From an uncultured Flavobacteriaceae bacterium (lineage in GTDB: Bacteria; Bacteroidota; Bacteroidia; Flavobacteriales; Flavobacteriaceae): DNA of 64,000 bases. Below are positions 14,914-54,544 of the stretch, one piece after another (position 1 is the first letter of the stretch; each line of letters opens with the position of its first letter). The translations under genes and the position numbers were made by a program. Below the pieces are notes generated by a model. That model was not told where the DNA came from. It did not search any database and saw nothing but the letters and a program-made list of their open reading frames with translations. The stretch is from NCBI GenBank assembly GCA_905181625.1, contig CAJIYJ010000007.1, forward strand, positions 310,001 to 374,000, given 5' to 3'.

Positions 14914-16851
14914 TTAAATAACCCTGTTTAGTTTATTAGAAAGAAGTGATTTTAACTTATAATAATCATTAATTTCTTTAAGAATTTCAGAGTTATCTGT
15001 GTTATTTTGCTTGGTCTGAAACTGTAACTCCTTAACCTTTTCATTGATCAAGTAAGTTCTTAAACTAAGAATAGTTTCAGTAACAAGCTGGCCTACGACC
15101 TTATCTTTATCTTTTACTAAAATATCTTTACTTAACCAGTCATGTAATTGATATTGATCTTCACTCATTAATATAGAAGTCACTTGATTAGACAAGTCAA
15201 TATCCATGGTGTTTAAAAAAACATCTAATATTAATTTTTCATTTTCATGATATTCCTGAATAATTTTACTATAAATTATTTTGAAAGAATCATTAGTAAA
15301 TTCTATTTCGTCTTGTTGTAGGTCTAAAAAAATCTTTTTATGAACTAATGAGTTGACTATTGTTGGCTCTAACAAAATATTGCCTTTTTCATCATTTTTC
15401 AATATAAGCTCTTCAAACTGTTCCTCCCTATTCCCGTACAATAATAAAATTTCGATTATTTTTCGTTCTAGTTCAAATAGAATATCAATTTTCTGAAGCT
15501 TTAAAGTCTTTTCAATTTTAATGATTCTTTTTTTAGATAGAACGGGGATTTCATTTTTACTACGTTGGGCTAAAGAATTAAATAAAACTTCCTCGGAAAC
15601 ATCCATTATTCTAGAACAATGCTTTATATAAATTTCTTGTTTTATTCTATCAGGAATTATAGAAATACTATTTATTATTTCATTAATTGTTTTAGCTTTT
15701 AAAATAGGATCATTTTTACTTTTTTCTATTAAAATAGAGGCTTTAAACTGAATAAAATCCTGAGAATTTTGAGTTAAAAAGTCATTAACTTCTTCGTAGC
15801 TTCGATTTTGAGTATAACTATCAGGATCTTCTCCATCTGGAAAAGCACAAACATTAACATTGAGCCCTGCTGACAATATCAAATCAATTCCTCTTAAAGT
15901 AGCATTTACCCCTGCCTTATCTCCGTCGAACAACATAGTGATATTAGAGGTTAATCTCCTGATTAAAGTAACTTGATCTATTGTTAATGCTGTCCCTGAA
16001 GACGAAACTACATTTTTAATTCCCCTTTGATGAAGCTGAATTACATCAGTATAACCTTCTACGATATAACAATTATCTAGCTTTGCAATTTCTTGTTTAG
16101 CAAAATAAATTCCATAAAGAATTTTACTTTTATTATATATTAAGCTTTCAGGTGAATTTAAATATTTTGCTGTTTTAATCTCTGTGTTTAATATTCTTCC
16201 TCCAAATCCTAAGATCCTTCCAGACATACTGTGAATTGGAAAAACAACTCTTCCTCTAAACCTATCTATAGATTTAGAATTTTGAAAAATTGTTAAACCA
16301 GATTTTTCTAAAAAATCTTTATTATAACCTTTTTCTATAGCTGAATTTGAAAAGTAACCTATTTCATTTGGAGAAAAACCAAGATCAAACTTTTCAATTG
16401 TTTCCTTAACAAACCCCCTCTCTTTAAAATATGAAAGACCTATTGCTTTTCCCTGATTAGAGTTGTTTAATGTGGTCTTATAGAAATCTTTAGCATATTC
16501 CGAAACAATATATAAACTTTCCCTTTCACTAGCTTTTTCTTTATCCAGAGAATTTAATTGAGTTTCTTCAATTTCTATATTATATTTTCTAGCTAAATAT
16601 TTTATGGCTTCTGGATAAGTAAAATGCTCATGCTCCATTAAAAAAGCAACAGAATTACCTCCTTTTCCACTACTAAAATCTTTCCATATTTGCTTTACTG
16701 GAGAAACAACAAAACTTGGTGTTTTTTCATTTGAAAAAGGACTTAAACCTTTGAAATTTGATCCTGCTTTTTTTAACTGAACAAAATCTCCAACCACCTC
16801 TTCTACCAGAGATTGTTCGAAAACTTTGTCAATTGTTGTTTTAGATATCAA
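14914..16851 (-). CDS. dnaG: DNA primase DnaG lacking the zinc-ligand residues
   Basis: DnaG synthesises RNA primers at the replication fork with DnaB helicase. The 645-residue protein keeps the order N-terminal CHC2 domain (about 1-95), catalytic core and TOPRIM fold, with E265 in YIVEGYTDV and D309-G310-D311 in MLFDGD. The four usual zinc ligands of the CHC2 domain are replaced: by alignment with E. coli C40, H43, C61 and C64 I read S37, S40, D58 and S61, while the surrounding fold residues (PF-NEKTPSF, GKGGN) stay conserved. The C-terminal helicase-interaction part is divergent. It lies one base from convergent nadE. Confidence 0.96.
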   Translation of the reverse strand: MISKTTIDKVFEQSLVEEVVGDFVQLKKAGSNFKGLSPFSNEKTPSFVVSPVKQIWKDFSSGKGGNSVAFLMEHEHFTYPEAIKYLARKYNIEIEETQLNSLDKEKASERESLYIVSEYAKDFYKTTLNNSNQGKAIGLSYFKERGFVKETIEKFDLGFSPNEIGYFSNSAIEKGYNKDFLEKSGLTIFQNSKSIDRFRGRVVFPIHSMSGRILGFGGRILNTEIKTAKYLNSPESLIYNKSKILYGIYFAKQEIAKLDNCYIVEGYTDVIQLHQRGIKNVVSSSGTALTIDQVTLIRRLTSNITMLFDGDKAGVNATLRGIDLILSAGLNVNVCAFPDGEDPDSYTQNRSYEEVNDFLTQNSQDFIQFKASILIEKSKNDPILKAKTINEIINSISIIPDRIKQEIYIKHCSRIMDVSEEVLFNSLAQRSKNEIPVLSKKRIIKIEKTLKLQKIDILFELERKIIEILLLYGNREEQFEELILKNDEKGNILLEPTIVNSLVHKKIFLDLQQDEIEFTNDSFKIIYSKIIQEYHENEKLILDVFLNTMDIDLSNQVTSILMSEDQYQLHDWLSKDILVKDKDKVVGQLVTETILSLRTYLINEKVKELQFQTKQNNTDNSEILKEINDYYKLKSLLSNKLNRVI

Positions 16852-22129: not shown

Positions 22130-23071
22130 TTATTCCCAATAATCTGTCCTATAGTTACTTTCATCATTTACTAGTAAACTTAAATAACTTTTATATCTAG
22201 ATACAGAAATAGTGCCATTTTCAACTGCATTTTTTATAGCGCAGTTGGGCTCTTTTTGATGAAGACAATTATTAAATTTACAATTTGATTTATATAAATT
22301 AAATTCCAAGAAAAAATCTCCTAATTCATTTTTTTCAATATCGATTAGACCAAACCCTTTGATTCCAGGACTATCTATAATAGAAGCACCAAAATTTAAA
22401 TCAAACATTTCTGCAAATGTTGTAGTATGCTGACCCTGTTCATTTATTTTAGATATTTCTTTCGTTTTTAGTAATAAACTTGGATCTAATGCATTTACAA
22501 GACTTGTTTTTCCAACTCCACTGTGGCCAGTGAAAATTGAAATTTTATTTGACATAATATCTTTAACAGCCTGAATATTAAGTTCTTTTAAAGCAGAAAT
22601 CTTTAATGACTTATACCCCACTTGATCATAAACATCTTTTAAACGTTCTACTTCTTTTATATCATTTTCTGAATAAGCATCTACTTTATTAAACAAAATT
22701 ACAGTTTCAATTCCAAAAGACTTAGTAGCAACTAAAACTCTATCAATAAATACTGATGAAGTAACGGGACTATTTGGTGTTACAATTAAAAAACAGCAGT
22801 CGATGTTAGAAGCTATTATATGAGATTGTTTAGAGAGATTAACAGATTTTCTGATTATATAATTTTCTCTTTTTTCAATTTCATAAATAACCCCTTTCAA
22901 CTCTTCTCTGTTAGTTACTTCAAAGTTTACAATATCTCCAACGGCAATTGGATTAGTGCTTTTAATTCCCAAAGACCTAAATTTTCCTTTCATATTACAT
23001 TTATAAATCTCCATAGATTCCGTATGAACAGAATACCAATTTCCAGTTGATTTATAAACTCGTCCTCTCAT
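22130..23071 (-). CDS. rsgA: Ribosome small subunit-dependent GTPase RsgA
   Basis: A circularly permuted GTPase acting in late 30S assembly. In the 313-residue protein an OB fold occupies about 1-70, then come G4 NKVD at 128-131, G1 GHSGVGKTS at 182-190, G3 DSPGIKGFG, and a C-terminal zinc finger with Cys, Cys, His and Cys in CKFNNCLH...NC. This is the permuted G4-G1-G3 order of RsgA/YjeQ. It lies four bases after the DAHP synthase gene. Confidence 0.96.
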   Translation of the reverse strand: MRGRVYKSTGNWYSVHTESMEIYKCNMKGKFRSLGIKSTNPIAVGDIVNFEVTNREELKGVIYEIEKRENYIIRKSVNLSKQSHIIASNIDCCFLIVTPNSPVTSSVFIDRVLVATKSFGIETVILFNKVDAYSENDIKEVERLKDVYDQVGYKSLKISALKELNIQAVKDIMSNKISIFTGHSGVGKTSLVNALDPSLLLKTKEISKINEQGQHTTTFAEMFDLNFGASIIDSPGIKGFGLIDIEKNELGDFFLEFNLYKSNCKFNNCLHQKEPNCAIKNAVENGTISVSRYKSYLSLLVNDESNYRTDYWE

Positions 23072-43410: not shown

Positions 43411-46400
43411 ATGTTAAAAAATCGTAAGTATATTCTATTAATATTTTCCTCTTTAATGATGCTATTTTTGTTCAATTTCGAGACAATTTCTACATCAATT
43501 ACAAGATCTATTCATAAAGAAAATTTAAAAAAAAGTCGTTCAAGTAAAACTTACGGAATATCAAGAACTGAAAGGAAAAACCTACAACTTCCTCCAAATC
43601 AGTATAATGAACAAATTCGGATGCTTTCTATGGATCCAATAAAAGGCATGGTACTTACAGAAGAATTATATAAACTTCAAGATAAATTAAGAGCAGCCAG
43701 AAATTCTGAACAACTAATAAATACCGTTCCAGGTCAATCGATAGCTTCCAGTTGGAATGAAAGAGGACCAAATAATGTTGGAGGAAGAACAAAAGCTATG
43801 ATGTTTGACCCAAACGATAATACAGGAGAAACAGTTTTTGCAGGAGGAGTCAGTGGCGGATTATTTAAAAACACTAAAATTTCAGATGAAAATTCAGAAT
43901 GGGAACTTATAACCGAAAGTATTCCAGAAAATATTTCTGTATCTGCCATTACTTATGATCCAAATAATCTAAATATTTTTTATGTAGGAACAGGAGAATC
44001 GTACACAAATTCACTGCCAGGAAATGGTTTATGGAAATCCTCTGATGGCGGCGCTACTTGGAATAAAATTTTTGGTGGCTTTGGAGCTTCAAGTGAGGTA
44101 ATCTTTATAAATGATGTTGTTGTAAGAGATAACGCAGGAAGTTCTGAAGTTTATGTAGCAGCAGGCTTTTCCTTTTTAGAAAATTCTTGGCTTGGAGATA
44201 AAGACTATGGTTTATATAAATCGACTGACGGTACTAATTTTACTCGAATAAAAACCGTAATACCAGGGACAGGTTCAGGCCGTTGGTATCAGCCAATGGA
44301 TTTAGAAATTTCTCCATCAACAAATAAAGTGTGGTACTCTACAACGGGAAGAGGACAAGGAGTAGGAGGAGGCACAATGTTAGTTGGCAACGCGGATGTG
44401 TCAGCTTTTGAAGTGAAGTATGAAAATTTATCTGATGGCAGTGCTAGTAGAAGAATGGAGATGGAAATCACAAAAGATGGAACTATCTATGCTTTTGCTG
44501 CTACAAGCGCTCCTATTAAAATAATAAAATCTAGTGATGAGTTTGCTACAGAAGCCACTACACTTACCCTTCCAAATCCAGTTGATACTGGTCAACCGGA
44601 TAATGATTTTACCAGAAATCAATCATTTTATGATTTATTAATTGAATCAGATCCTAATAATCCTGAAAACATATATACAGGTGGAATAGATTTATATAGG
44701 TCTACCAACGCCGCAGTTACTGTTGGAGAGACCAATCCATGGTCTCAAATTTCTAAATGGTCTAACAACAATGAATTAAGAGATTTAGAGGTTAGCTATG
44801 CTCATGCAGATCAACATGGATTAGTGTTTTCAGAAAAGAATTCCAAGGTGAAATTATTTGGAAATGATGGAGGTATTTTTTATAGCTTAACAGCCGATGA
44901 CGGTTCAGAGTCAATGGATTCCAGAAATAAAAATTATAATGTTACTCAAAACTACACTATTGGAGTAGCACCAACAGAAATGTTTAAAGATTTAACAAAA
45001 GTTGTCCCTGGCTATGACATTGCCGATGGATATGCTTGGTTTCCTATAACTATATCCGGATTGACAGATGTTGTCATTAGCGGACTTCAAGACAATGGTA
45101 GTCAACTAATCGTAAATAACTCTAACACAGTAAGTGCTTCAAGTATGGTTAAAGGTGGTGATGGTGCTGCCTCTATGTTTTCTCAAAACCTAGATAAAAA
45201 ATATTTTGTTGCTAATTACACTTTTAACAACTCTATTAGTGCTTATGATTTTGAGTCAGAAAATTGGTGGACTATTAATAACGAAGGCGAACGAAATGGC
45301 GACTTCATTAATGTAAATGCTTTAGACTCTAACAAAGGTTACCTTTATGCAAACTATACTAATAGCAATTATCAAATTGCTCTTTTTTCAGGTTGGGATG
45401 ACTTTAAAGGAAATGTAGTAAAAACATTATTAAAAGATGATTTACTTGACTCAAATATAACGGCTTTAACAGTTTCTCCACATGAAAAAAACAATTCAAA
45501 TTTAATGGTTGGACTAGCTAATGGGAAAGTTTTAAAAGCAGTTGTTAAAAGTCCTTCAGATATCACATGGTCTGAAATATCTGGCTCCGGTTTTTCCGGC
45601 AGTGTTTCTGATATTGAATTTGGTAAAACTGAAAATGATATTCTAATTACTTTTCATAATTACGGAGTTAAAAGTGTTTTTTATTCAGCTGATGGAGGTT
45701 CGCAATGGATAGATAAAGAAGGTAATCTGCCTAATATACCCATTAGATGTATTTTACAAAATCCACTAATTGCTGACGAAGTAATTGTAGGGACTGAACT
45801 AGGAGTCTGGTATTCAAAAAACTTTCTGTCAGGTTCTCCAACATGGGCTCAAGCAAATAATGGAATGACAGAAGTTAGAGTTACAGACTTAGACATGAGA
45901 GATGATTTTAAAGTTTTTGCAGCTACTTATGGAAGAGGCGTGTTTTCCTCTGAGTTCTCCTCTGAAGACCCTTTACTCTACTTAAAAACACCTTCTCCTT
46001 CATCAATAGATGTTAAACAAGGGAAAACCGGCACCTTTAAAGTAAAATATAAAGTATATGGTGGATATAATAAAGAAACTGAATTCGATATTTCAGGATA
46101 TCCTGATGGTACAACTATTACTTATTCTCCCTCTAAAAAAAGCACTTTGAGTTCAAATGGAGAAATATCATTCGAACTAACAATCCCTATTACAGCAGTA
46201 GTTAAAACATATCCTTTATTAATTACAGCTACTGCTACTGACAGTACAATTAATACGGTTGGAATTGATTTAAATGTCATATTAAATGATGAAGCAGATA
46301 CCACAGCTCCAACTATAGAAATAAGTAGTACAACTAGTGGTGTCACTAATGGAAGTACCACAAGTGATTCTAGTATCGCCTTGGCTTTTACAATCAGTGA

Positions 46401-48114
46401 ATCTGTTTCTAATTTTACAAAGGAAGATGTAACTGTTACCAACGGAACACTTAGTTCGTTTATTTCAGTAAGTGAAACTAGTTACACAGCTACTTTTACC
46501 CCAACTGAATCAGGAGCTTGTACTATAGATGTTGCAGCGGAAACTTTTACAGATGCTGCTTCTAATAATAATACTGCAGCCACTCAATTTAGTTGGACTT
46601 ACCTTGACAATATAGCGCCGACAGTTACTAATGTTTCTTCCTCTGCTGAAGATGGAACTTACGGGAAATTGGCTGAAATTCCAGTGATTGTGACTTTTAG
46701 TGAGCCAGTAACAGTAACGGGCACACCTCAAATCACTCTTGAAACTGGTGATTCGGATGCCGTAGTGAATTACTCTAGTGGAACAGGAACAACTGCTTTA
46801 ACTTTTAATTATACAGTAGCAGCTGGTCATGTATCTGCAGATTTAGATTATGAAACAACTTCATCTCTTGCTTTAAACTCAGGAAGTATTAAAGACACTG
46901 CCCTAAATGTGGCTACGCTAACTTTAGCTAGTCCGGGAGCTGCCGGCTCTCTAGGAGCTAATAAAGCATTAATTATAGATTCCACTATACTTACTATCTC
47001 TATAACAAGCACAACTAGCGGCGTTACAGATGGAAGTAGCACTAGTGACTCTTCAATCGAGTTGACCTTTACAGCTAGTGATTCCACATCTGATTTTACT
47101 AAAGAAGATATCACTGTTACTAATGGGACTCTTAGCTCTTTCACTGGAAATGGAACTAGTTACAACGCTACTTTCACACCAACTGCAACGGGAGCTTGTA
47201 CTATAGATGTTGCAGCCGCTACTTTTACAGACGTTGACTCCAATGATAATAGTGCTGCCTCTCAATTTAACTGGACTTATGATAATGTTGGACCAACAGT
47301 TACTAACGTAACTTCCACCATTCCAGATGGGGCTTACGGAAAACCATGTGAATTTCAGATTAATGTTGCTTTTAGTGAAGTGATTAATGTAACGGGCACA
47401 CCTCAAATCACTCTTGAAACAGGAAGCACGGATGGAGTGGGGAATTATGAAAGTGGAACAGGAACCAATACCTTAACTTTTTATTATATAGTAGCTGATG
47501 GTCATACGTCTAGTGATTTAGATTACGTAGACTCAAGCTCTTTAGCGCTAAATTCTGGAACTATTAAAGATGCTGCATCCAACGATGCAACTCTTACTTT
47601 AGCTAGTCCAGGAGCTGCCGGTTCTCTAGGAGCTAATAAAGCATTAGTAGTAGATACTACACCACCAACAATTACTATAACAAGTACAACTAGTGGCGTT
47701 TCAGATAATAGTATGACAAACGACACCACAATTGCACTATCCTTTACAATTAGTGAAAATGCGAATAAGTTTACAAAAGAAGATGTTACTGTTTCTAATG
47801 GGACTCTTAGTTCTTTTACTGGAACCGGAACTAGCTACAGAGCAATTTTCACTCCCAACGGCCAAGGAGACTGTACTATAGATGTTGCAGCCGATGCTTT
47901 TAGTGATGGTGTTGAATGTGGGAATTGGAATATTGCTGCTTCTCAGTTTAACTGGAATTATGATATGGATGGAGATGGAATTAAGTTCGGAATAGACAAT
48001 TGTCCTACTGTAGCTAATGCGGATCAAAAGGATTACGATAAAGATGATTTAGGAGATGCCTGCGATCCCAATCCTATTCCGTTGGACACGTTCTCTTTTA
48101 GAGCATACAGATGA
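43411..48114 (+). CDS. Giant exported beta-propeller protein with Ig-like repeats and TSP3 repeat (copy 1; C-terminal T9SS signal split off)
   Basis: A 1567-residue surface or secreted protein. A hydrophobic export signal lies at about residues 6-26. Residues about 110-850 form sortilin/BNR-type beta-propeller repeats with Asp-box sequences such as SSDGGATW and SADGGSQW. About 870-960 is a beta-sandwich linker, then five Ig-like units in A-B-A-B-A order, then a thrombospondin type 3 calcium-binding repeat (DGDGIKFGIDNC, DLGDACDPNP). The frame then shifts by an extra T in TTCTCTTTTAGAG near 48097 and stops at 48112. The matching region of copy 2 continues into a T9SS sorting domain, so copy 1 as read would not be sorted by T9SS. 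Confidence 0.88.
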   Translation: MLKNRKYILLIFSSLMMLFLFNFETISTSITRSIHKENLKKSRSSKTYGISRTERKNLQLPPNQYNEQIRMLSMDPIKGMVLTEELYKLQDKLRAARNSEQLINTVPGQSIASSWNERGPNNVGGRTKAMMFDPNDNTGETVFAGGVSGGLFKNTKISDENSEWELITESIPENISVSAITYDPNNLNIFYVGTGESYTNSLPGNGLWKSSDGGATWNKIFGGFGASSEVIFINDVVVRDNAGSSEVYVAAGFSFLENSWLGDKDYGLYKSTDGTNFTRIKTVIPGTGSGRWYQPMDLEISPSTNKVWYSTTGRGQGVGGGTMLVGNADVSAFEVKYENLSDGSASRRMEMEITKDGTIYAFAATSAPIKIIKSSDEFATEATTLTLPNPVDTGQPDNDFTRNQSFYDLLIESDPNNPENIYTGGIDLYRSTNAAVTVGETNPWSQISKWSNNNELRDLEVSYAHADQHGLVFSEKNSKVKLFGNDGGIFYSLTADDGSESMDSRNKNYNVTQNYTIGVAPTEMFKDLTKVVPGYDIADGYAWFPITISGLTDVVISGLQDNGSQLIVNNSNTVSASSMVKGGDGAASMFSQNLDKKYFVANYTFNNSISAYDFESENWWTINNEGERNGDFINVNALDSNKGYLYANYTNSNYQIALFSGWDDFKGNVVKTLLKDDLLDSNITALTVSPHEKNNSNLMVGLANGKVLKAVVKSPSDITWSEISGSGFSGSVSDIEFGKTENDILITFHNYGVKSVFYSADGGSQWIDKEGNLPNIPIRCILQNPLIADEVIVGTELGVWYSKNFLSGSPTWAQANNGMTEVRVTDLDMRDDFKVFAATYGRGVFSSEFSSEDPLLYLKTPSPSSIDVKQGKTGTFKVKYKVYGGYNKETEFDISGYPDGTTITYSPSKKSTLSSNGEISFELTIPITAVVKTYPLLITATATDSTINTVGIDLNVILNDEADTTAPTIEISSTTSGVTNGSTTSDSSIALAFTISESVSNFTKEDVTVTNGTLSSFISVSETSYTATFTPTESGACTIDVAAETFTDAASNNNTAATQFSWTYLDNIAPTVTNVSSSAEDGTYGKLAEIPVIVTFSEPVTVTGTPQITLETGDSDAVVNYSSGTGTTALTFNYTVAAGHVSADLDYETTSSLALNSGSIKDTALNVATLTLASPGAAGSLGANKALIIDSTILTISITSTTSGVTDGSSTSDSSIELTFTASDSTSDFTKEDITVTNGTLSSFTGNGTSYNATFTPTATGACTIDVAAATFTDVDSNDNSAASQFNWTYDNVGPTVTNVTSTIPDGAYGKPCEFQINVAFSEVINVTGTPQITLETGSTDGVGNYESGTGTNTLTFYYIVADGHTSSDLDYVDSSSLALNSGTIKDAASNDATLTLASPGAAGSLGANKALVVDTTPPTITITSTTSGVSDNSMTNDTTIALSFTISENANKFTKEDVTVSNGTLSSFTGTGTSYRAIFTPNGQGDCTIDVAADAFSDGVECGNWNIAASQFNWNYDMDGDGIKFGIDNCPTVANADQKDYDKDDLGDACDPNPIPLDTFSFRAYR
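46297..47964 (+). repeat. Alternating A-B-A-B-A Ig-like domain repeat array
   Basis: Five adhesin-type Ig-like units are encoded in phase: A1 46297-46611, B1 46612-46980, A2 46981-47289, B2 47290-47655, A3 47656-47964. A units share TKEDVTVTNGTLSSF and CTIDVAA; B units share VTGTPQITLETG and ASPGAAGSLGANKAL. The ends of B1 and B2 are almost identical in DNA (about 50 bases with two differences). Copy 2 of the module lacks the array entirely. Confidence 0.9.
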
Positions 48115-48295
48115 GACTTGTAGGAGCTCGGATAATGGTTCAGTCAAATTAACTATTAAAGGTGATTTCAGCCTCCCTTTCACAGTAGCTGTTACTGGTG
48201 GTCCAACTGGATTTACTCACACCCCAGAACCAATATCAGGATCTGATTGGTCTTTAGGAAGTTTAAAAGCTGCTAATTACAAAGTGTGCTTAACT
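48098..48295 (+). repeat. Identical repeat block 1, first copy
   Basis: These 198 bases are identical by eye to 53136-53333, an offset of 5038 bases. The extra T that shifts the copy 1 frame lies directly at the left edge of this block. Confidence 0.92.
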
Positions 48296-48808
48296 TCGGA
48301 TTCTTTTCCTACCTTAATCAGTGTTATCAACGTGAACAGTTAAGAGCCTGAAGACCTTAGTGTTCTATCTACGATAAATAGAGAAGATAAATTAGCTTCA
48401 TTGAAACTTGCAGGGGGAACTAAATACAAGGTTGTATTAAATGGTAATTTAATTACTACTTATGATAATGCAATTGACCTAGTATTAAGCCCAGGAATAA
48501 ATACTATAAAAGTCACAACTAATTTAGAATGTCAAGGAGTTTATGAAGAAACAATATTTGTTTCTGAAGACATTCTACTTAGTCCAAACCCAGCTAACTC
48601 AACATCAAAATTATGGGTTGGTGGTAATGATGAAGATGTTAATATAACGCTATTTGATATTACAGGAAGAGTCATTTGGACTAAAAATGATAAAGTGCCC
48701 TATTCAAGGTCTGTGAATGTATCTTTCTCAAGTATTAAATCTGGACTTTATATTCTAAAAGTGAACTCAGAAACAATTAATAAAACAATTAAAGTAATAA
48801 GAGAATGA
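48098..48808 (+). pseudogene. Detached C-terminal region of copy 1 with T9SS type A sorting domain
   Basis: This stretch continues copy 1 in the +1 frame. It encodes the domain seen in copy 2 at its residues about 1182-1416 but is broken by the entry frameshift near 48097, a locally shifted stretch at about 48310-48330 (one base lost, one gained) and a TAA at 48341-48343. After the stop the frame is open to 48808 and ends with the T9SS type A sorting domain (LLSPNPANSTSKLWV, DITGRVIW, SGLYILKVN). Apart from the broken 66-base interval it is identical to copy 2 with one substitution. It may be decay, conversion or an assembly fault. Confidence 0.8.
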
Positions 48809-48865
48809 AAAAAATAATAATACTAAGCTTTTTTGTTTTTTCAATAGCACTAGCCTCTTGTTCAG
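48362..48865 (+). repeat. Identical repeat block 2, first copy
   Basis: These 504 bases match 53400-53903 at the same 5038-base offset with one substitution (G at 48373, A at 53411). The block covers the T9SS sorting domain and runs into the signal peptide of the following lipoprotein gene. Confidence 0.92.
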
Positions 48866-49479
48866 ATAGTCAATATGAATACAGAGTTCCACAGGATCCA
48901 GAAGCAACTATACTTTTAAAACCTGATAACAACACAGAATGTTTAGAAGTTGAGGCTGTTAAATTTGAATGGAGTAAATCTGTTAATACAGATATCTATA
49001 CAATAGTGGTTACTAATTTGCTTTCTAAAGAAATAATCACACAAACATCAACCTCTCCAACAAAAGAAATTACTCTTGTAAAAGGAAAACCGTATTCTTG
49101 GCAAGTCACATCAAGTAATAGCATGGTTTCAAAAAAAGCTAAAAGTGAAATTTGGAAATTTTACTTATCTGGTGAAGCATTATTTAATCACGCACCATTT
49201 CCAGCGGAAATTTTGGCCCCGCTCTATGATGCTTCAGTCTCTAAAGGGGCCATAGAACTATCTTGGTCTTATTCTGATGTTGACTCCGCTGACACTCATA
49301 CTTTTGATATTTACTTAGATCAAACTGATGCCTCTACATTAAACACTGCTGACTATTCTTCTACGAAAAAATCAGTTACTTTAAGTAGTTTAGGCACTTA
49401 CTATTGGAGAATTATCACAAAAGATAATTACGGAAACAATTCAGATTCTGGAATTTTTAAATTTACTGTTACAGAATAA
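48805..49479 (+). CDS. FN3-like exported lipoprotein (copy 1)
   Basis: A 224-residue lipoprotein: the signal ends in the lipobox ALASC with Cys19. Two beta-sandwich domains of fibronectin type III character follow, roughly 35-115 (VEAVKFEWSKS...YSWQV) and 125-224 (APFPAEILAP...HTFDIYLD...YYWRI). There are no catalytic motifs. The ATG overlaps the stop of the preceding reading frame by four bases (ATGA), suggesting translational coupling to the T9SS protein. A paralogue occupies the same position after copy 2. It could anchor or chaperone its partner at the cell surface; that is inference. Confidence 0.8.
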   Translation: MKKIIILSFFVFSIALASCSDSQYEYRVPQDPEATILLKPDNNTECLEVEAVKFEWSKSVNTDIYTIVVTNLLSKEIITQTSTSPTKEITLVKGKPYSWQVTSSNSMVSKKAKSEIWKFYLSGEALFNHAPFPAEILAPLYDASVSKGAIELSWSYSDVDSADTHTFDIYLDQTDASTLNTADYSSTKKSVTLSSLGTYYWRIITKDNYGNNSDSGIFKFTVTE

Positions 49480-49513
49480 ATTTTATTTTTAGGAGTCTTT
49501 AAGAAGAGATATT

Positions 49514-49551
49514 ACTTATTAGTATAAAGATACTAATAAGTATGTTTTTTT
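49514..49551 (+). terminator. Intrinsic terminator after module copy 1
   Basis: ACTTATTAGTAT and ATACTAATAAGT form a perfect 12-bp stem with an AAAG loop (49514-49541), followed by ATG and seven T residues. It separates the first module from the second, which has its own promoter. Confidence 0.85.
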
Positions 49552-49568
49552 AGATACATCTAATCTAT

Positions 49569-49576
49569 TATATTTG
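49569..49576 (+). promoter_or_regulatory. Promoter -7 element of module copy 2
   Basis: TATATTTG matches TAnnTTTG exactly, 19 bases before the ATG of the copy 2 beta-propeller gene and just after the copy 1 terminator. Confidence 0.6.
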
Positions 49577-49595
49577 CGGAAATCAGAATTAAAAG

Positions 49596-52500
49596 ATGTT
49601 CAAAACTTCAAATAAAAAAAAATTAATAGTACTAATTTCTTCCGTTTTAGGCTTGTTAGTGTATCTTAATTACAACACTTATTCTACAACAATTAAGAGA
49701 ATTATTCATACAGAAAATTTAGAAAATAGTCCTTTTAAAGAAACTTACAATTTATCTAAGATTGAAAGAAAAAAAATAGACCTTCCCCCAAATAAGTATT
49801 CTGAAAAAATGTGGGAACTTTCAATGAATCCAATTGAGGGTAGACCAAATATTGAGAAATTATTTGAACTTCAATATAATCTTAAAAAGAACAGAATCGA
49901 GTCGGCTAAATCAAATTCCGTTCCTGGAGAGTCTGATGAAATGAAATGGATCTCAAGAGGTCCAGGTAATGTTGGAGGTAGAACTAAAGGGATGATGTTC
50001 GATCCTAATGATAGTTCCGATGAAACAGTCTTTGCTGGAGGAGTAAGTGGTGGATTATTTAAAAATACTAGTATTTCTGATCAAAACTCAGAATGGGTAC
50101 ATATTACTGATGGGATTCCAAGCAACATTCCCGTGTCATCTATAACATACGATCCGAACGACACTAAAGTTATTTATGTTGGAACTGGAGAATCTTACAC
50201 AGGAGCAGAAGCGATAGGAAATGGGCTTTGGAAATCATCGGATAGTGGTGTAACATGGTCAAATATTTTTGGTGGAAAATCTGATTCTGAACTAGTATAC
50301 GTTAGTGAAGGGAATTCTATAAAAGTTACCAATATTGAAAATGTTGGTCCATTTAACTACGTAGCTGCAGCCTTTGGTCCGTCGCTTACTAAAGACCCTA
50401 TTACAGCTGACTTAATACTAGCGGATGATGGTGATGCATCAGGAGATGATTCTGATGGAATTGGAGGTACTAATTCTGATGCCTGTCAAGGTCTTACATC
50501 AGCTAATGCTGCAAGTATGAATGGTAAAATTGCTTTAATAGAGAGAGGGGATTGTTCGTTTATTAGTAAAGTTAAAGTAGCACAAGATGCAGGAGCTAAA
50601 GCTGTAATAGTGATTAACAGAAATGATGGATCAAATGCAGATTGGACCCAAGCAGCAATAGTTATGGGTGGAACTGAAGGTGCCGGTGATATTACAATTC
50701 CTTCAGTGATGGTTTCAACTAACGATGGAACTAAGATCAAAAATAATTTAAAAAATGGAACAGTTACCGTTTCTCTTTCTCAACAAAATCTTACTAATAA
50801 AGGAACTACAGTTATTCCTGGAGTTTTTTATATAAATGATGTTGTTGTAAGAGATAATGATGGTGATTCTGAGATATTTATTGCCGCTGGAGTCTCTAGT
50901 CACAGAGATGCTGCTAGTCATATTTTTGGTGTAGATGATTATGGAATTTGGAAATCTCTAGACCAAGGTACAACATGGATTAAAGTTCCAGTATATTTAG
51001 AGGGATCCACTACTCTTTATCAGCCTATGGATTTAGAATTAGATCCTAGTACTAATAAGCTATGGTTTTCTACTACAAACAATTTCAAAGGTACAGGTGG
51101 AGGAACTATATTTGCCTCCAACTCTGGTGTTACAGGTTTTATAAAAAAATACACTATTGAAGGAGCTAGAAGAACTGAACTAGAGATAGCTTCAAATGGC
51201 ACAATTTACGCACTAGCTGCTGAAAATCCTGTTACAATTATAAAATCAACAGATCGATTTAACTCAGCTCCCACTGTAGTTACATTACCTAGTGATGCTG
51301 ATGGGAATATAACAGCAGACGATTTTACTAGAGGCCAATCATTTTACGATTTATTAATTGAGTCGGATCCAAACAATCCTAATGCTATTTTTGCTGGAGG
51401 AATTGACTTGTTTAAATCAACTACTGGTGCAGAAAATGGATCTGGAGCAAATCCTTGGAACCAGTTATCTCATTGGTATGCTGGATTTGGACAGGCTTAC
51501 GCACACGCTGATCAACATGGAGTTGCATTCGGAAATTCTGATTCTTCAAAAAAAGTGTTTGGAAACGATGGAGGAGTTTATTTTAGTAAAACTCAATCTG
51601 ATGGAAGTGAACTGATATCTTCCAGAGTAAAAAACTACGTAACCAGTCAGTTCTATACAGTCGGAGTTGCCCCATCTGAAATGTTTAAAGATTCAACAGA
51701 GCAAGTTTCTGGAAACGATTTATCGACTAGGTTACAAAGTACATTAACAATAAACGGGATAACAGATGTGTTCTTAGCAGGTGCTCAAGATAATGGAACT
51801 CAATTATTATCTAATAAAAATAATTCTATTAGTAGAGGACATGATGTTTCTGGAGGAGATGGAGCTGCTTCTATGTTTTCTCAAAACTTAAACAAAAGAT
51901 ATTTTGTAACAAACTATGTGTACAATCAATATGTAGACGTATATAGCTTTGACACTAATCAACTTTTTCAAATTAACAGTGAAAGCACATCTAATGGAGA
52001 TTTCATAACAGTTCAAGCTTTAGATTCAAAACTCGGTGTAATTTATTCTAATTATACTAACTCAGGTAATTATGAAATTGCTGCATATTATGGTTGGGAT
52101 GACTTTAAACAAGCAGACAGAAATACTAACGCACCAAAAATTATTTTAACAAGTGCTCAAATGCTTGCAAATGTATCTGCATTGACTGTTTCACCATTTG
52201 GAACGGACACTTCCACTCTTATGGTAGGGCTTGAAAACGGAAGTGTATTTAGAGTTGAAAACGCTAATTCAAACGCTGCTAAATGGACTAATATTTCAGG
52301 AAATGAATTTCTGGGAAGTGTTTCAGATATTGAATTTGGAATTAATGAAAATGAGATATTTGTAACGTTCCATAATTATGCGGTTAAAAATATATTCTAT
52401 TCTTCAGACGGAGGAAAAACTTGGTCAAACAAAGAAGGTGATCTTCCTGATTTACCCGTAAGAAGTGTTTTACAAAATCCTATCGTTCTAAATGAAGTGA

Positions 52501-53846
52501 TTATAGGTACAGATCTAGGTATTTGGTACACTAAAAATTTCAAAGATGAATCTCCAACTTGGATTCAAGGATTTAATGGAATGAGTGATGTAAGAATAAC
52601 TGACTTAGATTTAAGAGATGATTATGCTGTATTTGCTGCAACCTATGGAAGGGGAATATATTCTTCCTATTTTTCATCAGATGGACCTATGCTCCAACTA
52701 AATTCACCAGAATCTAGCATAAAAATAGCTCAAGGTGAAGAAGGTTCTTTTAAAGTTAAATACAAAGTTTTTTCAGCATACAACGCTGAAACTGAATTCT
52801 CAATTACTGGTTTACCTGTTGATACTTCAATAGAATATATTCCTTCTAAAAAAATTGAAATAAATGAAAGTGGCGAAATTTCATTTAAAATAACTTTAGA
52901 CGAAAACGCTGTAGCCAAAACTTATCCACTACAAATAATTGCAACTGCAGCAGGACAATCAATAGATCCTGTTGGAATAAGCCTCGAAGTTCTTTCAAAT
53001 GATTACGATAATGATGGAATTAAAAATGCTGAAGACAACTGCCCTAATACTGCAAATGCTGATCAAAAAGATTTTGATGGAGACGGGTTTGGCGATGTTT
53101 GTGACCCTAACCCTATTCCTAGTGATACATTTAGCTTAGAGCATACAGATGAGACTTGTAGGAGCTCGGATAATGGTTCAGTCAAATTAACTATTAAAGG
53201 TGATTTCAGCCTCCCTTTCACAGTAGCTGTTACTGGTGGTCCAACTGGATTTACTCACACCCCAGAACCAATATCAGGATCTGATTGGTCTTTAGGAAGT
53301 TTAAAAGCTGCTAATTACAAAGTGTGCTTAACTACTGATGCATTTCCAAACTTAAATCAATGTTTCAACGTTACCATTGAAGAGCCAGTTGATCTAAGCG
53401 TTCTATCTACAATAAATAGAGAAGATAAATTAGCTTCATTGAAACTTGCAGGGGGAACTAAATACAAGGTTGTATTAAATGGTAATTTAATTACTACTTA
53501 TGATAATGCAATTGACCTAGTATTAAGCCCAGGAATAAATACTATAAAAGTCACAACTAATTTAGAATGTCAAGGAGTTTATGAAGAAACAATATTTGTT
53601 TCTGAAGACATTCTACTTAGTCCAAACCCAGCTAACTCAACATCAAAATTATGGGTTGGTGGTAATGATGAAGATGTTAATATAACGCTATTTGATATTA
53701 CAGGAAGAGTCATTTGGACTAAAAATGATAAAGTGCCCTATTCAAGGTCTGTGAATGTATCTTTCTCAAGTATTAAATCTGGACTTTATATTCTAAAAGT
53801 GAACTCAGAAACAATTAATAAAACAATTAAAGTAATAAGAGAATGA
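49596..53846 (+). CDS. Giant T9SS-exported beta-propeller protein with inserted PA domain and TSP3 repeat (copy 2, intact)
   Basis: A 1416-residue surface or secreted protein. The export signal is at about residues 9-26; beta-propeller repeats span about 110-1040 with Asp-boxes SSDSGVTW, SLDQGTTW and SSDGGKTW. A protease-associated (PA) domain is inserted at about 250-400 (NGKIALIERGDCSFISKVKVAQDAGAKA), absent from copy 1. A thrombospondin type 3 repeat (DYDNDGIKNAEDNCP, DGDGFGDVCDPNP) precedes the C-terminal region and the T9SS type A sorting domain. The substrate or ligand is unknown; the propeller resembles sortilin/BNR glycosidase-like folds, but no active site is assigned. Its stop overlaps the lipoprotein start by four bases. 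Confidence 0.9.
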   Translation: MFKTSNKKKLIVLISSVLGLLVYLNYNTYSTTIKRIIHTENLENSPFKETYNLSKIERKKIDLPPNKYSEKMWELSMNPIEGRPNIEKLFELQYNLKKNRIESAKSNSVPGESDEMKWISRGPGNVGGRTKGMMFDPNDSSDETVFAGGVSGGLFKNTSISDQNSEWVHITDGIPSNIPVSSITYDPNDTKVIYVGTGESYTGAEAIGNGLWKSSDSGVTWSNIFGGKSDSELVYVSEGNSIKVTNIENVGPFNYVAAAFGPSLTKDPITADLILADDGDASGDDSDGIGGTNSDACQGLTSANAASMNGKIALIERGDCSFISKVKVAQDAGAKAVIVINRNDGSNADWTQAAIVMGGTEGAGDITIPSVMVSTNDGTKIKNNLKNGTVTVSLSQQNLTNKGTTVIPGVFYINDVVVRDNDGDSEIFIAAGVSSHRDAASHIFGVDDYGIWKSLDQGTTWIKVPVYLEGSTTLYQPMDLELDPSTNKLWFSTTNNFKGTGGGTIFASNSGVTGFIKKYTIEGARRTELEIASNGTIYALAAENPVTIIKSTDRFNSAPTVVTLPSDADGNITADDFTRGQSFYDLLIESDPNNPNAIFAGGIDLFKSTTGAENGSGANPWNQLSHWYAGFGQAYAHADQHGVAFGNSDSSKKVFGNDGGVYFSKTQSDGSELISSRVKNYVTSQFYTVGVAPSEMFKDSTEQVSGNDLSTRLQSTLTINGITDVFLAGAQDNGTQLLSNKNNSISRGHDVSGGDGAASMFSQNLNKRYFVTNYVYNQYVDVYSFDTNQLFQINSESTSNGDFITVQALDSKLGVIYSNYTNSGNYEIAAYYGWDDFKQADRNTNAPKIILTSAQMLANVSALTVSPFGTDTSTLMVGLENGSVFRVENANSNAAKWTNISGNEFLGSVSDIEFGINENEIFVTFHNYAVKNIFYSSDGGKTWSNKEGDLPDLPVRSVLQNPIVLNEVIIGTDLGIWYTKNFKDESPTWIQGFNGMSDVRITDLDLRDDYAVFAATYGRGIYSSYFSSDGPMLQLNSPESSIKIAQGEEGSFKVKYKVFSAYNAETEFSITGLPVDTSIEYIPSKKIEINESGEISFKITLDENAVAKTYPLQIIATAAGQSIDPVGISLEVLSNDYDNDGIKNAEDNCPNTANADQKDFDGDGFGDVCDPNPIPSDTFSLEHTDETCRSSDNGSVKLTIKGDFSLPFTVAVTGGPTGFTHTPEPISGSDWSLGSLKAANYKVCLTTDAFPNLNQCFNVTIEEPVDLSVLSTINREDKLASLKLAGGTKYKVVLNGNLITTYDNAIDLVLSPGINTIKVTTNLECQGVYEETIFVSEDILLSPNPANSTSKLWVGGNDEDVNITLFDITGRVIWTKNDKVPYSRSVNVSFSSIKSGLYILKVNSETINKTIKVIRE
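53136..53333 (+). repeat. Identical repeat block 1, second copy
   Basis: Partner of 48098-48295 with no differences seen; here the reading frame is intact through the block. Confidence 0.92.
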
Positions 53847-53903
53847 AAAAAATAATAATACTAAGCTTTTTTGTTTTTTCAATAGCACTAGCCTCTTGTT
53901 CAG
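53400..53903 (+). repeat. Identical repeat block 2, second copy
   Basis: Partner of 48362-48865, one substitution (A at 53411). Identity ends within the lipoprotein coding region, shortly after the lipobox Cys codon. Confidence 0.92.
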
Positions 53904-54544
53904 GTAGTGCAGACGGAGGGAATAATGGCGGTGGAGACACACCAGGTCCAACAGGACCAGTAGCACCAAAAGCAGCAACACTATCTAAACCTGCAAATAA
54001 TTCAGAATGTTTAGAGGTTGAAGCCGTTAAATTTGAATGGAATAAATCAGATGACACTACTTCTTATACTTTAACAATTAAAAATCTACTTAACTCTGAA
54101 TTTATTTCTCAAACTACTACTTCAACAAGTGCAGAAGTTACTCTAAGTAAAGGGAATCCATACTCATGGTATATCATTTCTACTAATACTGGTACAGCAA
54201 CTGCAACTAGTAATAAGTGGAAATTTTATTTGTCTGGAGAGGCTCAAAAAAACCATGCCCCATTCCCTGCTGACATTTTAGCTCCAAAACCAGGTGTGAC
54301 AGTCAACGCAGGAGCAATACAGTTTTCATGGTCATTTTCAGACATTGACACTAGTGACACCCACACTTTTGACATTTATTTAGACACAAAAGATGGGTCA
54401 TCAGTGTATGCTTCTAATTATACAGCAACAAAAAGAACAATTAATTTAAGTGATCCTGGAACTTATTATTGGAAAATTGTAACGAAAGATAATCATGGGA
54501 GTACTTCAGATTCTGGGGTTTCTACTTTTATAGTAATAGAATAA
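53843..54544 (+). CDS. FN3-like exported lipoprotein (copy 2)
   Basis: A 233-residue paralogue of the lipoprotein at 48805-49479. The signal and lipobox (ALASC, Cys19) are identical in DNA; then comes a Gly/Pro-rich spacer (GGNNGGGDTPGPTGP) that copy 1 lacks, followed by two FN3-like beta-sandwich domains (VEAVKFEWNKS and HTFDIYLDTKD segments). The ATG overlaps the upstream stop by four bases. It is surface-exposed or periplasmic by prediction; function unknown. Confidence 0.8.
   Translation: MKKIIILSFFVFSIALASCSGSADGGNNGGGDTPGPTGPVAPKAATLSKPANNSECLEVEAVKFEWNKSDDTTSYTLTIKNLLNSEFISQTTTSTSAEVTLSKGNPYSWYIISTNTGTATATSNKWKFYLSGEAQKNHAPFPADILAPKPGVTVNAGAIQFSWSFSDIDTSDTHTFDIYLDTKDGSSVYASNYTATKRTINLSDPGTYYWKIVTKDNHGSTSDSGVSTFIVIE

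Follow-up and report, generated by a model that had tools for sequence, protein, structure and literature searches.

DnaG primases without the zinc ligand set: a recurrent and probably zinc-free form of the primase N-terminal domain in flavobacteria and unrelated bacteria

Classic bacterial DnaG primases, such as that of E. coli, carry an N-terminal CHC2 zinc-binding domain (ZBD). In metazoan TWINKLE, a primase-like N terminus has lost its zinc ligands. Animal TWINKLE is without primase activity (PMC3610141, in part), and in B. subtilis the ZBD of DnaG is needed for template binding (PMC5429622, in part). TtDnaG2 of Thermoanaerobacter tengcongensis, a second primase beside the conventional one, initiates with loose specificity, which its authors ascribe to sequestered ZBD sites; zinc ligands are not discussed in the portion of that paper used here (PMC5634424). 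Paired forms with and without zinc ligands (C+/C−) are described for ribosomal proteins such as S4, L31, L32 and L36, with both forms of S4 present in some genomes (PMC3087516, in part).

Here we describe a DnaG encoded in a 64,000-nucleotide stretch of DNA (the window) from an uncultured Flavobacteriaceae bacterium (GenBank assembly GCA_905181625.1, contig CAJIYJ010000007.1, positions 310,001 to 374,000). Domain order, predicted fold, Toprim residues and profile matches are those of DnaG with a CHC2 domain (E. coli; G. stearothermophilus, 1D0Q; A. aeolicus, 2AU3). In contrast to these primases, S-x-[C/D]-[S/T] replaces the Cys-His-Cys-Cys (CHCC) ligand set and the knuckle glycine is replaced by serine. 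The pattern is reminiscent of the C+/C− ribosomal proteins, in that two forms exist, ligands are lost together, the distribution is patchy and the same groups are involved. However, DnaG is a replication enzyme and exhibits signs of switching in place, rather than mainly the spread of paralogues, and the two forms were not seen together in the window's assembly. As in metazoan TWINKLE, which is DnaG-like, the zinc domain is altered; the loss of catalytic residues known from TWINKLE is not seen, the acids being intact in the only DnaG found. Unlike with TtDnaG2, no conventional primase was found beside it in the assembly. No report of a ligand-less DnaG was found in the titles and abstract openings of open-access literature, in part among the best 12–15 of 18–573 matches, and the domain is best read as a recurrent variant for which no earlier report was found in that literature.

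The window protein scored 412.3 bits on the TIGR01391 dnaG profile (cut-off 283.6), placing it among bacterial DnaG proteins, and its N-terminal domain scored 94.1 bits on PF01807, the CHC2 zinc-binding domain (cut-off 24.9), over query residues 2–96, i.e., DnaG residues 3–97 (Table 1). The domain is retained despite the loss of its ligands, as the preliminary description had proposed. The translated stretch ...FKGLS37PFS40NEKTPSFVVSPVKQIWK57D58FSS61GKGGN... preserves the flanking PF-NEKTPSF and GKGGN segments on which that description had remarked, and S37, S40, D58 and S61 align with the Cys, His, Cys and Cys of the Aquifex primase 2AU3, such that its claim of four lost ligand positions is borne out and the ligand set of PF01807 is absent. 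No cysteine occurs in residues 1–97. The two histidines there, H74 and H76, lie in columns that are not conserved across S-type domains (His in 70/185 and 43/185 rows), so no alternative four-ligand site is visible; a second zinc site within the domain, which would have spoken against the preliminary description, was rejected. The Toprim catalytic Glu and DxD are all present (E265, D309 and D311) and invariant across an alignment of 37 sequences (numbered E264, D308 and D310 there, as the alignment starts at residue 2); the modeled Toprim domain matched 4EDG with Z 37.4. PF01807 matched once in the window's assembly (1.86 Mb, 90.6% complete), at the window DnaG itself, which speaks against a compensating second primase. 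Toward the C terminus (14914–15588), a weak DnaB_bind match was obtained (22 bits, cut-off 20.6), and no Pfam domain matched the approximately 220 C-terminal residues beyond it, so the helicase-binding end is divergent. Elsewhere, the window contains a tandem pair of very large genes for secreted-like proteins, with a small lipoprotein-like gene after each (43411–54544). Apart from its start residue, the ORF at 48401–48808 is identical to the C-terminal end of the second large protein (49596–53846). The first large ORF lacks this tail; one copy of the pair therefore looks interrupted.

Table 1. Features of the window DnaG and of a control protein, in window coordinates
Feature	Position	Strand	Remarks
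dnaG (DNA primase, 645 aa)	14914..16851	minus	TTG start; from translation and profile matches
N-terminal domain, residues 1–97	16561..16851	minus	CHC2 zinc-binding domain elsewhere; without the ligand set here
RNA polymerase (Toprim) domain, residues 105–436	15544..16539	minus	Pfam: DNAG_N, Toprim
S37, position of zinc ligand 1 (Cys)	16741..16743	minus	Ser in 265/265 S-types
S40, position of zinc ligand 2 (His)	16732..16734	minus	S-types: T, S, N, K, A, V, H, G or Q
K57, adjoins ligand 3	16681..16683	minus	Putative match to C. difficile Lys/His
D58, position of zinc ligand 3 (Cys)	16678..16680	minus	S-types: Cys 142/265, Asp 123/265, no other
S60, knuckle Gly of Zn forms	16672..16674	minus	G in 165/172 CHCC, S in 262/265 S-types
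S61, position of zinc ligand 4 (Cys)	16669..16671	minus	S 212, T 52, A 1 among 265 S-types
RsgA GTPase (within-window control)	22130..23071	minus	Pfam RsgA_GTPase; C-x4-C-x-H-x5-C intact

DnaG N-terminal domains were collected in surveys of GTDB genomes. Some of these were centered on the window; others covered two more families of its class, the class to which a Bradyrhizobium belongs and the order that includes a Hydrocarboniphaga metagenome-assembled genome (MAG). The window-centered survey comprised 30 loci and 60 chosen regions from 390 matching genomes, and a second sample of the window's order comprised 30 loci (15 already included) and 40 chosen regions of 144 matching genomes. The two further families contributed 30 plus 20 each (from 60 and 57 matching genomes), the alphaproteobacteria 70 in total (30 loci and approximately every third listed row below, of 282) and the Hydrocarboniphaga order 30 plus 20 of 81 matches; the alpha- and gammaproteobacterial query genomes, themselves S-type, were each counted once. 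Further S-types came from a DNA pattern for the S state that was run on named genomes and viral contigs; because this pattern demands the S state, its rows (L251–L330, 80 of at least 116 stretches, and L147–L150) indicate where the form occurs, not how often. Two fragments without the domain (L144 and L262) were dropped, as were rows repeating an earlier aligned region (445 to 439); some group counts keep a few repeats, e.g., 2 of the 14 S rows of family f3, from genomes already counted. With repeats removed, 437 distinct domains fell into 172 CHCC and 265 S-x-[C/D]-[S/T] (S-type, one with Ala) domains, proportions that are not prevalences since the surveys used S-type queries and favored top-scoring rows. 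Leaving aside the 83 pattern-selected S-types, 172 CHCC and 182 S-type domains remain of 354. All four ligands were kept in 172 of the 437 domains, one in 147 and none in 118; no domain with two or three was encountered among the 437 sampled. Two forms without intermediates, as in C+/C− zinc-switch proteins, are what these sampled DnaG domains exhibit. Position 60 switches together with the ligands.

S-type domains were found in 39/39 sampled genomes of the window's family, its own included, which argues against chance loss in the window DnaG. The preliminary description had taken the loss to be lineage-wide; this held for the family but not across the order, in which families f63, f66 and f68 were CHCC (2/2, 7/7 and 1/1). 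Within the same order, family f70 yielded seven CHCC domains, one fragment without the domain and one S-type within a 1154-aa frame resembling phage primases, and family f2 retained the His (SHD[S/T], 5/5). Families f3 (14 S and 42 CHCC rows) and f8 (25 S and 28 CHCC rows) hold both states. Nor was the loss limited to flavobacteria: S-types also occur in other Bacteroidota families, in Chlorobiaceae (Chlorobium phaeovibrioides, C. ferrooxidans), in Alphaproteobacteria (SAR11, i.e., Pelagibacteraceae; Bradyrhizobium, Methylobacterium, Microvirga, Xanthobacter, Ancylobacter, Hyphomonas and Robiginitomaculum) and in one gammaproteobacterial order, with the Hydrocarboniphaga MAG. The 70 alphaproteobacteria sampled divide into 26 S and 44 CHCC, and the 50 members of the Hydrocarboniphaga order into 43 S and 7 CHCC. 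One genome of the window's family (G174) encodes, in addition to an ordinary dnaG, a second DnaG-like protein (L145, C16:161900-164400) that resembles phage primases, with a 1089-aa frame and SNCS at the ligand positions. Twelve phage records were chosen by hand from two overlapping match sets (164 and 170). S-type primases were present in the records for Flavobacterium (three, of which two are near-identical), Cellulophaga (one) and Caulobacter (one) phages (L444–L447, L449), and CHCC primases in one record each for the hosts Porphyromonas, Thermus, Leptospira, Pseudoalteromonas, Synechococcus and Helicobacter and in one unassigned faecal phage. These states look host-matched, but we make no claim of this.

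By these comparisons, the N-terminal domain of the window DnaG is probably one of a discrete set of zinc-free primase domains that arise recurrently (S-P-F-x ... [C/D]-F-S-[S/T]-G), and it would still serve as a working recognition domain. A cause compatible with this reading is zinc economy, the lineage-wide exchange of zinc ribbons for zinc-free forms as seen in ribosomal proteins. We regard it as possible, though with more doubt than confidence; of the single pressures that we can name for the switch, the likeliest is nonetheless that zinc ribbons are generally being thinned out in these lineages. Bacteroidetes and Alphaproteobacteria are among the most zinc-free groups: of the eight zinc-type ribosomal proteins, only L32 is mixed and the others are zinc-free (PMC3087516, in part). 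Consistent with zinc economy, the CxxC pairs of alphaproteobacterial L32 were kept in 7/8 genomes with CHCC DnaG and in 1/8 with S-type DnaG (Fisher p 0.01), with the reservations that the 16 genomes are not phylogenetically independent and that one of the eight S-type L32 calls was read from a 34-aa fragment. Counted by genome, the two L32 forms (L506–L535) track the DnaG zinc state in 14/16. The association fails in f8, where L32 is without CxxC pairs in 7/7 CHCC and 6/7 S-type genomes, and Chlorobi have S-type DnaG yet retain zinc-type L31, L32 and L36 (PMC3087516, in part). The window genome retains intact zinc motifs in LigA (C4), PriA (three CxxC pairs) and RsgA. The RsgA stretch is one that we take to be a zinc site; with these three motifs intact, genome-wide zinc loss was rejected, which also tells against zinc economy. 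The family profile for the Top1 zinc ribbon had no match in the window genome and was also silent in 6/14 controls, including Bacteroides ihuae, so we base no conclusion on it. The link between DnaG state and zinc-free ribosomal proteins is suggestive.

A different account of the distribution dispenses with repeated switching: the S-type form would have had a single origin, and the gene or the domain would then have been passed on horizontally. Trees were constructed from the catalytic domain alone, with the ligand-bearing domain excluded; they were built quickly, leave many forks open and contain several long branches, and the direction of change cannot be read from them. We take CHCC as the ancestral state because it is present in Aquifex and in the CHCC primases of E. 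coli and Bacillus. On the tree of 110 Bacteroidota rows, eight label changes were required, one of them a phage-like paralogue, and at least four were forced by well-supported branches. Ten state changes, at least three of them forced, were obtained on a tree of 90 rows (alphaproteobacteria, outgroup and ten pattern-selected rows; eleven outgroup rows are also in the Bacteroidota tree), and two, at least one forced, among 50 gammaproteobacterial rows. This scatter of S-types among Zn forms speaks against a single origin, as do the residues of the domain itself. At ZBD columns unaffected by the switch, the nearest relative of alphaproteobacterial S-types outside their own S set was a Zn form of their own lineage in 26/26 cases. 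The same was true of 37/43 gammaproteobacterial S-types (the other 6 were nearest to alphaproteobacterial Zn forms) and of 4/5 in the group labeled p, so that alphaproteobacterial, most gammaproteobacterial and most other S domains keep own-lineage residues. Flavobacterial S-types were nearest to their own Zn form in 51/72 cases and to f3 or f8 S-types in 14/72. In favor of spread, all f3 S-types were nearest to a flavobacterial S-type (14/14, own Zn form 0/14), as were 10/25 in f8 (own Zn form 14/25). A single origin appears unlikely to us. The catalytic-domain trees and the lineage-specific residues together indicate repeated in-place switching to nearly the same residues. In-place convergence is clear between phyla and classes, and domain transfer may account for some switches inside Bacteroidia (f3, f8).

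The S-type domain might instead be vestigial, with template recognition lost and initiation either unspecific or set by the helicase. For T7 primase, a 1994 EMBO J paper reportedly found that template recognition depends on the zinc motif, which would favor this possibility. Divergence of the ZBD relative to the RPD was, for S and Zn forms in five groups (without the gammaproteobacterial order), 0.60/0.59, 0.35/0.75, 0.75/0.74, 0.67/0.84 and 0.60/0.84. Measured against the catalytic domain, divergence of the S-type domain is thus close to that of the Zn form in two groups and slower in three; the domain is under strong constraint, about equal to that on the Zn form or stronger. This constraint, the restriction of the replacements to a few residues and the retention of the NEKTPSF segment make a vestigial domain improbable. 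Positions 37, 40, 60 and 61 differ between the states in all six group comparisons, and changes at positions 34, 48, 60 and 69 accompany those of the ligands. Unidirectional shifts of at least 0.4 were seen in 6/80 non-ligand ZBD columns, as compared to 0/302 RPD columns, and compensation by the catalytic domain was rejected on this count. The AlphaFold2 model built with 37 sequences (pLDDT 93.1) matched the zinc-binding domain 1D0Q over 98 residues (Z 16.6, rmsd 1.5 Å). The predicted fold is the same as that of the Zn form, which denotes compatibility rather than stability, since the predictor favors family folds whatever the ligands. More improbable still is metal binding through other residues or between subunits: D58 and the conserved E42 are potential oxygen ligands by sequence, but 120/185 S-type domains have no Cys at all, Cys or His exceeds 15% of rows in five columns but in none of these across all groups, and Ser and Thr are poor zinc ligands.

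With respect to template recognition, a Lys beside the zinc ribbon of C. difficile DnaG, His in other primases, tunes the initiation trinucleotide (PMC5204125, in part), and K57 of the window DnaG is its likely counterpart. Lys dominates at residue 57 in Bacteroidia and His is mostly found in alphaproteobacteria, in both zinc states. A tie between zinc state and template specificity was rejected, since residue 57 tracks lineage and not zinc state in Bacteroidia and alphaproteobacteria, as though zinc had no bearing on the recognition surface. Phe occurs at this position in 36/265 S-types and 0/172 CHCC domains; in the gammaproteobacterial order (L461–L499) it is found in many S-types and is absent from the 7 CHCC domains.

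Returning to the zinc-free recognition domain that we regard as probable, the two ribbon loops formerly pinned by zinc would now be held by hydrogen bonds among S37, S60/S61 and the Cys or Asp at 58, with the changes at positions 34, 48 and 69 helping to hold them. The domain would still offer its template-recognition surface, i.e., the NEKTPSF strand, residue 57 and the GKGGN loop, to the catalytic domain, such that primer initiation would work without zinc. We infer that the domain is zinc-free and recognizes the template. Zinc may be dispensable in this domain, because unrelated bacteria made nearly the same swap.

In a broader reading, which we put forward tentatively and at slightly less than even credence, the zinc of primase would be a replaceable scaffold. 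The same "serine ribbon" (C→S, G→S, C→S/T, with C kept or changed to D) would have evolved separately in Bacteroidota/Chlorobiota, in Alphaproteobacteria and in Gammaproteobacteria, and genome replication in SAR11, rhizobia, flavobacteria and some phages would be zinc-free, as one arm of a wider zinc-free nucleic-acid machinery. Since f3 and f8 each hold zinc and putatively zinc-free versions with neighboring conserved segments kept, the role of zinc in structure, in sequence recognition and in redox or metal sensing is directly separable in these families. The finding also bears on inhibitors aimed at the primase zinc domain.
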